The notes below the pieces were generated by a model that had not been told where the DNA came from, made no database searches, and saw only the letters and a program-made list of their open reading frames with translations. Below, in pieces: positions 15,515 through 17,917 of a stretch of 35,548 bases of DNA (within the stretch, counting starts at the first letter, position 1; each line of letters opens with the position of its first letter). Made by a program: the position numbers and the translations under genes. Source of the DNA: Cyclobacteriaceae bacterium (GTDB taxonomy: Bacteria > Bacteroidota > Bacteroidia > Cytophagales > Cyclobacteriaceae); the NCBI GenBank assembly GCA_947457095.1, contig CANGUK010000012.1, positions 1 through 35,548 of the forward strand, written 5' to 3'.

Positions 15515-16645
15515 TTATTTTTTGGCGAGCCTGTGGAAAACTTCCAGGTACTGCTCTGTTACACGATCCCAGGAGTATTTTGAAGTAAGGCCTTGACGGG
15601 CAGTTTTCCGGAGAGCATCCATTTTGATCGATTCCGTTTCTGCGAGTTCAACTAGGGATTTTACTCCTTCTATTGTTTTTTCGAAATACCACCCATGCTT
15701 TCCGTTTTGGAGCATCTCCTGGTTAAAAGGCGTGTTTAGGGCTAGAATGGCACAGCCATAGCCCAAGGCTTTGAGCATGGCCGGGTTGGTGCCGCCGAAT
15801 TCATGCCCATGAAAATATGCGTAACAATGTGAATAGAGGGAGGCAAGAATCAGCGGGTCGGTGACATAGCCGGTGAAAAGGACGCGGGGCCCCTCTTGGT
15901 TCTTCACTTTCTGGGCCCAGGCATCTGAAAAAGGAGCGTCTCCCACGATAACTAGGGGCTTGTTTGATTTGGATTGAAGGAACCCTTCAATGATGAGATC
16001 CGCATTGTTGTCTGGAATCAAGCGCCCTACGATCAGGTAATACTCCCGTGAGCGGAGATTCCAGGCTTGCAAAGGAGCATCCTCCACCTCATCCTTGGGA
16101 TTGGCTCCGTAGGCAATCACGACCGAATCTTTTTGAAATTCCTCCAGGTATACCCTTCTCATTTCATCGGAATCGTTGATGATCTGGTCAAAAGATTGGG
16201 TTGCCATCTTGGAAGCCCACTTAAAATAGCGGGCGCCCAAACCTTTCCACTTGGGTCGTAGCCATTCGAGACCGTCTACGTTGATGGCTGTAGGCTTGCC
16301 AAATAAGCGAGCAATCCACCCGAAAGGTCCGTTTCCAGAATTGACCACGAAAATCACATCCACATCCGAAAAGCAAGCATGGAGCATGGAAAAAAAGGTA
16401 TGACTCAGTTGCGTAAGGCTTTTGCTTTCTAGGGCAGGAGTGTAGATGCACTCGATACCATTGACGAATCTGGGGCGTGAGGTAAACAAGGACCGGTGGT
16501 TGTAGACCCGCACGGAGACTCCTTTTTCCACTAGGCGCTCGCCCAATTCCTTGACAAGGGTGTCGTAGCCCCCATACACATAGGGATAGCCTTTTGCACC
16601 CATGATGGCTACTTTTATATCACTAGGTGACGGCTTGCTTCCCAT
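15515..16645 (-). CDS. Glycosyltransferase, DUF1972/GT4-type (rhamnosyltransferase-like)
   Basis: VAIMGAKGYPYVYGGYDTLVKELGERL N-terminus and GHEFGGTNPAMLKALGYGCAILAL C-terminal sugar-nucleotide motif. Confidence 0.88.
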   Translation of the reverse strand: MGSKPSPSDIKVAIMGAKGYPYVYGGYDTLVKELGERLVEKGVSVRVYNHRSLFTSRPRFVNGIECIYTPALESKSLTQLSHTFFSMLHACFSDVDVIFVVNSGNGPFGWIARLFGKPTAINVDGLEWLRPKWKGLGARYFKWASKMATQSFDQIINDSDEMRRVYLEEFQKDSVVIAYGANPKDEVEDAPLQAWNLRSREYYLIVGRLIPDNNADLIIEGFLQSKSNKPLVIVGDAPFSDAWAQKVKNQEGPRVLFTGYVTDPLILASLYSHCYAYFHGHEFGGTNPAMLKALGYGCAILALNTPFNQEMLQNGKHGWYFEKTIEGVKSLVELAETESIKMDALRKTARQGLTSKYSWDRVTEQYLEVFHRLAKK

Positions 16646-16751
16646 TTATTCCCTCATTTTTAATAAAGGTTGCTACAATCTCCTTTAAATTTTTGATGTA
16701 ACGATCCTCAGAAAAGTATTCGATAATTCTTTTTCTTTCTTCTTCCCCCAT
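16623..16751 (-). pseudogene. Possible C-terminal remnant of a glycosyltransferase-like gene
   Basis: Minus-strand reading MGEEERKRIIEYFSEDRYIKNLKEIVATFIKNEGINGKQAVT*, overlapping the start of the next GT gene by 23 nt; fills the only large gap in the cluster. Confidence 0.5.
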
Positions 16752-16780
16752 TTCAAAAGCAGGGGGTTTTGCCGAGAAAA

Positions 16781-17917
16781 TTACCCCTTCAAAATTTCTA
16801 TAAAGGCCTGTTCCAAAGATAGGGAAAACTTCTCCGCGGAAAATTCCTGCAACCTGATTCTCCCTTTTTCCCCCAATTCCTTTCTTAGATCAGGATCATC
16901 CACCAAAAGCTTCATGGACTGAAAAAGTGATTCAACATCATTTTTTTCCAAAATCAAAGCAGCATCACCCGCCACTTCCATCAAAGCCCCCTGCCGTGAA
17001 ATGATGACTGGCAACCCAAAAGAGAAAGCCTCCAATACAGGCAATCCAAATCCTTCATTTGCCGAAGGAAAAGCATATCCCAAGGCATGCTGGAAATAAG
17101 AAGCCAATTGCTCATGGCTTACATAACCCGTGAAATCGACTTTATCAGTCAATCCCAGGATGTTTACCAATTCAATCAAATGATCGTAATCATCTAAAGT
17201 TTCTCTTGGACCCCTTTGTCCAACCAGCACCAGCCGGAGGCTTTCATAGCCCTCCATTTTTGTAAGTTTATCAAATGCCTGGATTAGTAAACCCAGGTTT
17301 TTCCTTTTTTCCAATACCCCAACATGAAGAAAATAGTCTGCTTGTGTAGCCGATGGTGAAACCGAAAGGGCTAAGCTTTCCGAAAGCCCAGAAGCCTGAT
17401 AAACCACCTTCATTGGAATAGATTTAAAAGGAGGCAATTCTTGTAACCGCATTTTAGAAAACTGGGTTATTGTGATGATTTCCCCGTTTTTTTGCAATCC
17501 TTTTTCTAAAAAATAGAGATAATACTTCAACCAAAGACTTTGGTAATGTTCAGGAGTATCCCAAAAACACGTGTCATGAATGACGGAAACTTTTTTCCCT
17601 TTTGCGAAAACCGGGCTTAAAATATCAGGACTGAAGACGATCGCTGCTTGGTGGTAATAAGAGAGTATCGGTAATGACACCTGTTTTCTGAAGAAATAGA
17701 GAAGCTGAAAAAGGAGGTTTTTCCACTTGGCTGTTTTTCCTCGGAAGAACTGATTTTGAATTACTTTCCGATAATTTGGGCTGATGACATAGTCGAAATC
17801 GCTGTTGTTTTTTTTGAGAATCTCATCGCAAAGAGTAACCATATAGGTTCTGATCCCTGTTTGTGCCACATACAGGTAAAAAACATCCACCACTACTTTT
17901 GGCCTATGCTTCTTCAT
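16781..17917 (-). CDS. Glycosyltransferase family 4
   Basis: FLHVGVLEKRKNLGLLIQAF, GYVSHEQLASYFQHALGYAFPSANEGFGLPVLEAFSFGLPVI, GDAALILEKNDVESL. Confidence 0.93.
   Translation of the reverse strand: MKKHRPKVVVDVFYLYVAQTGIRTYMVTLCDEILKKNNSDFDYVISPNYRKVIQNQFFRGKTAKWKNLLFQLLYFFRKQVSLPILSYYHQAAIVFSPDILSPVFAKGKKVSVIHDTCFWDTPEHYQSLWLKYYLYFLEKGLQKNGEIITITQFSKMRLQELPPFKSIPMKVVYQASGLSESLALSVSPSATQADYFLHVGVLEKRKNLGLLIQAFDKLTKMEGYESLRLVLVGQRGPRETLDDYDHLIELVNILGLTDKVDFTGYVSHEQLASYFQHALGYAFPSANEGFGLPVLEAFSFGLPVIISRQGALMEVAGDAALILEKNDVESLFQSMKLLVDDPDLRKELGEKGRIRLQEFSAEKFSLSLEQAFIEILKG

Follow-up and report, generated by a model that had tools for sequence, protein, structure and literature searches.

Two glycosyltransferase (GT) genes in a bacterial surface-polysaccharide cluster are separated by 135 nt in which a 42-codon open reading frame (ORF) can be read. 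Is this ORF a small gene, or what is left of a larger one? The window, by which we mean the whole 35,548-nt stretch of DNA that was analysed, corresponds to a single contig from an Algoriphagus-type MAG (~84% complete, 2.47 Mb, 157 contigs), and two tRNA genes open the contig (5-77 and 153-236). Both flanking genes lie on the minus strand and are intact: the upstream GT4 gene, GTup (16781-17917), encodes 378 residues (Pfam Glycos_transf_1, E 1.3e-33), and the downstream gene, GTdown (15515-16645), encodes 376 residues with Pfam DUF1972 and Glycos_transf_1 domains. Measuring the gap (16646-16780) confirms the length given in a preliminary description of this DNA, and the other elements described there can also be read: a minus-strand ORF of 42 codons with an ATG start (16623-16751), a longer reading between the two genes, AFEMGEEERKRIIEYFSEDRYIKNLKEIVATFIKNEGINGKQAVT (AFEMGEEER...AVT), and an open frame that runs 88 codons from stop to stop and enters GTup out of phase. 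The ORF ends 23 nt inside GTdown and matched no Pfam family. The gap is almost certainly a deletion scar, from which an acyltransferase gene and a second GT4 gene have been lost while the flanking GTs were kept.

Gene order in related genomes

Using the conserved GTdown as an anchor, we fetched 77 loci. The gene order in relatives is GTup, a hexapeptide-repeat acyltransferase, a second GT4 and a DUF1972-type GT, with ~2.0 kb between GTup and GTdown. In two loci, L028 and L091, these GTs enclose two more genes, one for a hexapeptide-repeat acyltransferase of 235 aa and one for a GT4 of 390 aa; the acyltransferase of L028 contains the Pfam Hexapep repeat, and the distance from GTup to GTdown is 2,036 nt in L028 versus 135 nt in the window. 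An intact acyltransferase and GT4 are also present on contig C95 of a further MAG, G011, where the contig ends within GTdown, and in L035 a GT4 of the same kind lies immediately upstream of GTdown. The intact GT4 proteins of L091 and G011 C95 are 88-91% identical to that of L028. Comparison of sister loci shows that L028, L091, G011 C95 and L035 each have a full-length GT4 whose end falls at this junction, as expected from the earlier reading that a deletion had removed most of a GT gene and left its tail; the 42-codon ORF, by comparison, is not conserved. A search for the lost genes elsewhere in the window's genome gave no acyltransferase match, and its only GT4 match was a flanking GT; since the MAG is incomplete, both genes could sit on missing contigs.

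Two further features of the relatives' loci were observed. In L028, 159 nt without a listed gene separate the acyltransferase from the GT4 (L028:4644-4802) in an otherwise tight operon, and L091 has a similar gap of 158 nt. In one related MAG (L031:4789-7119) a single 776-aa ORF runs in frame through both the GT4 and the DUF1972 GT; this may be a genuine two-domain fusion or the result of a sequencing error where the genes overlap.

Two gene ends in the gap

Most of the gap is occupied by a minus-strand segment, AFEMGEEERKRIIEYFSEDRYIKNLKEIVATFIKNE (16653-16760), that aligns with the last 36 codons of GT4 genes (profile positions 352-384 of 385); it includes the stretch RKRIIEYFSEDRYIKNLKEI. 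Scored with an HMM of 13 homologues from the GT4 family that occupies this position in relatives, the peptide reaches 24.5 bits (E 1.9e-6 over the six frames of the window), a score attained by none of 5000 shuffled sequences, the best of which reached 6.8. The match is confined to the extreme C-terminus of the profile (positions 351/352-384 of 385), and the only other frames of the window with meaningful scores are GTup and GTdown; a broader profile of 66 GT4s gave 16.9 for the tail vs 11.7. Outside the genus, the best family-wide tblastn matches are 38-45% identical and belong for the most part to C-termini of this GT4 family. Judged by these alignments, the peptide is a C-terminal remnant of a GT4 and not a chance look-alike, which bears out its preliminary assignment to a GT C-terminus. 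It holds no catalytic GT-B domains, comprising only 36 codons without a Pfam match.

The remnant shares its place in the operon with the GT4 of Algoriphagus polysaccharide clusters (Pfam Glycos_transf_1 / Glyco_transf_4; L028:4803-5975), and the two have in common the C-terminal motif MG..G..RV..YF..E.Y..N and a layout in which a stop codon, 4 nt and an ATG lead into the next gene. Unlike that gene, the window keeps only the last 36 codons, and these are divergent in sequence. Given that the GT4 proteins of L091 and G011 C95 are so close to that of L028, whereas the window tail has only ~61% DNA identity to it over 64 nt, the lost GT4 was probably a divergent variant at the same place, unlike the one retained by intact relatives. 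Searches of 59 relatives, 297 genomes of the family and 391 of the order (overlapping sets) turned up no intact gene closely like the tail; family-level matches were at most 45% identical, so the exact parent gene is one that we infer.

The other end of the gap derives from a different gene. A segment that overlaps the end of GTup (16761-16788, minus strand) aligns with the first ~9 codons of the hexapeptide-repeat acyltransferase, its ATG start now AGG: the window sequence AGGGGTAATTTTCTCGGCAAAACCCCCT (16788-16761) matches ATGGGTAATTTTCTCGGCAACACCCTCT (L028:3936-3963) at the DNA level without gaps. The ungapped match between the window and L028 extends another 20 nt beyond the GTup stop, into the acyltransferase, which argues that the scar joins the start of the acyltransferase to the GT4 tail. 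By this alignment the scar holds the ends of two genes, the acyltransferase as well as the GT4. The preliminary reading of a single-gene remnant thus stands as regards the GT4 tail and has to be widened to a second lost gene. The scar of G011 is longer by ~60 nt, and a 13-nt exact acyltransferase match within the extra sequence (AAAGATTGGGATT; 3 of 300 shuffles reach the L028 score) is suggestive of acyltransferase DNA there; the same ~60 nt gave no signal against the L091 acyltransferase.

From these observations, we propose that ~1.9 kb was deleted in an ancestor of this branch. That deletion would have taken out the acyltransferase and the second GT4 almost entirely; the alignment shows the first codons of the former joined to the last ~36 codons of the latter. 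As the alignments also show, the remnant has since been worn by base changes, short insertions and deletions, and renewed larger losses: in the window the acyltransferase no longer has its start codon nor the GT4 its stop codon, in G011 the frame is damaged, and in other members 27-37 nt are left. The flanking GTs remain intact. The polymer made by such a cluster likely lacks one sugar and one acyl group, and the remnant would serve solely as a spacer, with no function of its own.

Erosion and spread of the scar

The scar is found at several lengths: ~196 nt in G011, 135 nt in the window, 36-37 nt in L023, L024, L025, L029, L084 and L097, and 27 nt in L022. In G011 the tail frame has no ATG; it opens directly behind a TAG and is cut short by a shifted TGA. 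The other deletion-bearing relatives retain at most ~11 codons of it. Within the 36-nt group, the alignment reads as a junction at a short shared TGAAG, with the scar now providing the GTup stop codon. All nine deletion-bearing sequences fall into a single clade of the GTup protein tree (support 97/94; one change), in which the window branches first, and a single ancestral deletion is therefore the simplest reading. No such grouping of these loci appears in the GTdown tree, so that a single origin rests on GTup and on the shared scar sequence; the discord is probably due to recombination in GTdown.

These same trees bear on how the scar came to be here, since a whole version of the cluster, already deleted, may have been exchanged by recombination instead of being deleted in this lineage. 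We regard such an import as a possibility of real but lesser weight. It is favoured by the grouping of deletion-bearing loci in the GTup tree and not in the GTdown tree, and by the presence of both versions in the G011 MAG: contig C106 (L131) carries the deleted version together with a methyltransferase, and C95 (L130), in which no methyltransferase match was found, carries the intact acyltransferase and GT4. Identity between the two contigs is ~90% across their first 932 nt and across a stretch of 1.9 kb, and it reaches 99.4% in the final 154 nt, which lie within GTdown, where each contig ends. G011 looks like two strains or two species binned together, with a recently shared GTdown segment; MAG binning may thus have mixed two organisms, which weakens this argument for import. 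We stress that import is no rival to the deletion itself and bears only on how it spread.

The wear of the tail also speaks for the deletion. Between the window and G011 the tail has a dN of 0.18, a dS of 0.49 and a dN/dS of 0.37, measured over 27 codons only and possibly including divergence that preceded the deletion; for GTup in the same pair the values are 0.048, 0.29 and 0.16, and no 27-codon stretch of GTup has a dN above 0.163. Evolution of the tail is relaxed, on a length too short to prove neutrality, and a ratio below 1 could reflect divergence before the deletion or slight constraint.

Also in this cluster, the Wzy gene of L084 (L084:4031-4843) matches that of the window over no more than 128 residues at its start and 109 at its end, with ~100 nt between the matches; this is either a large internal deletion in the polymerase gene or an assembly fault, and possibly another decay event in the same cluster.

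Origin of the 42-codon ORF

The position of the former GT4 stop codon (16650-16652, minus strand) reads GGA in the window and TGA in the eight deletion-bearing relatives of the junction alignment. Most of these have TGA ATAA ATG at the junction (L022 has TGA ATAC ATG and L097 TGA GAA ATG), and the intact relatives have TAA CAAA ATG (L028) and TAG CGAA ATG (L091). Because GGA has replaced the stop codon, the frame in the window runs on into GTdown, giving the 23-nt overlap. That overlap, taken in the preliminary description for a normal operon junction, does exist, but it is derived: in the ancestor the stop preceded the next ATG by 4 nt, an arrangement that intact relatives still have.

The same description offered a functional 42-aa protein as its alternative; on that reading, the GT4 tail would have been retained, or newly taken up, as an independent small gene. 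The frame is indeed open and starts with ATG, and the tail dN/dS of 0.37 would fit some constraint; however, the ATG corresponds to a conserved internal Met-Gly of GT4 tails, the last residues are an out-of-frame reading of GTdown, and the whole belongs to no Pfam family. An ATG-started counterpart is absent from all eight other deletion-bearing relatives, the frame being broken in G011 and eroded to at most ~11 codons in the rest, so that the ORF is confined to the window. We consider a functional protein highly improbable, and it would be similarly surprising if the GT4 tail persisted for some other role, be it that of a small helical peptide or that of a leader to which translation of the next GT gene is coupled. 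By its sequence make-up, the ORF arose through decay and is no new small gene, and in annotation it should be marked as a remnant rather than a gene. Sequencing or assembly error, in a MAG fragmented into 157 contigs, might have collapsed or frame-shifted an intact gene to give the gap, but this can be practically dismissed, because the same scar occurs at various stages in eight other sequences from independent assemblies and ~1.9 kb is missing, not one or two bases.

The literature on remnants in polysaccharide clusters offers only general parallels for the scar. A remnant gene, itrB2, is present in the surface-polysaccharide loci KL8 and KL9 of Acinetobacter (PMC3628348), and Streptococcus thermophilus LMD-9 has an inactivated EPS gene and deleted glycosyltransferase genes (PMC3231929). 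Like the scar in the window, these are leftovers of polysaccharide-cluster rearrangement; they differ in being longer or whole genes, or linked to transposases, whereas the window holds two fused gene ends, at which no mobile element was seen. The scar is ordinary gene loss, an instance of polysaccharide-locus turnover of an already known kind, and as such it raises no new question. It provides a clean example of gene loss in bacterial surface-polysaccharide clusters, with apparently one deletion seen at several stages of erosion across related Algoriphagus-type MAGs, one of which contains the intact version beside the deleted one.
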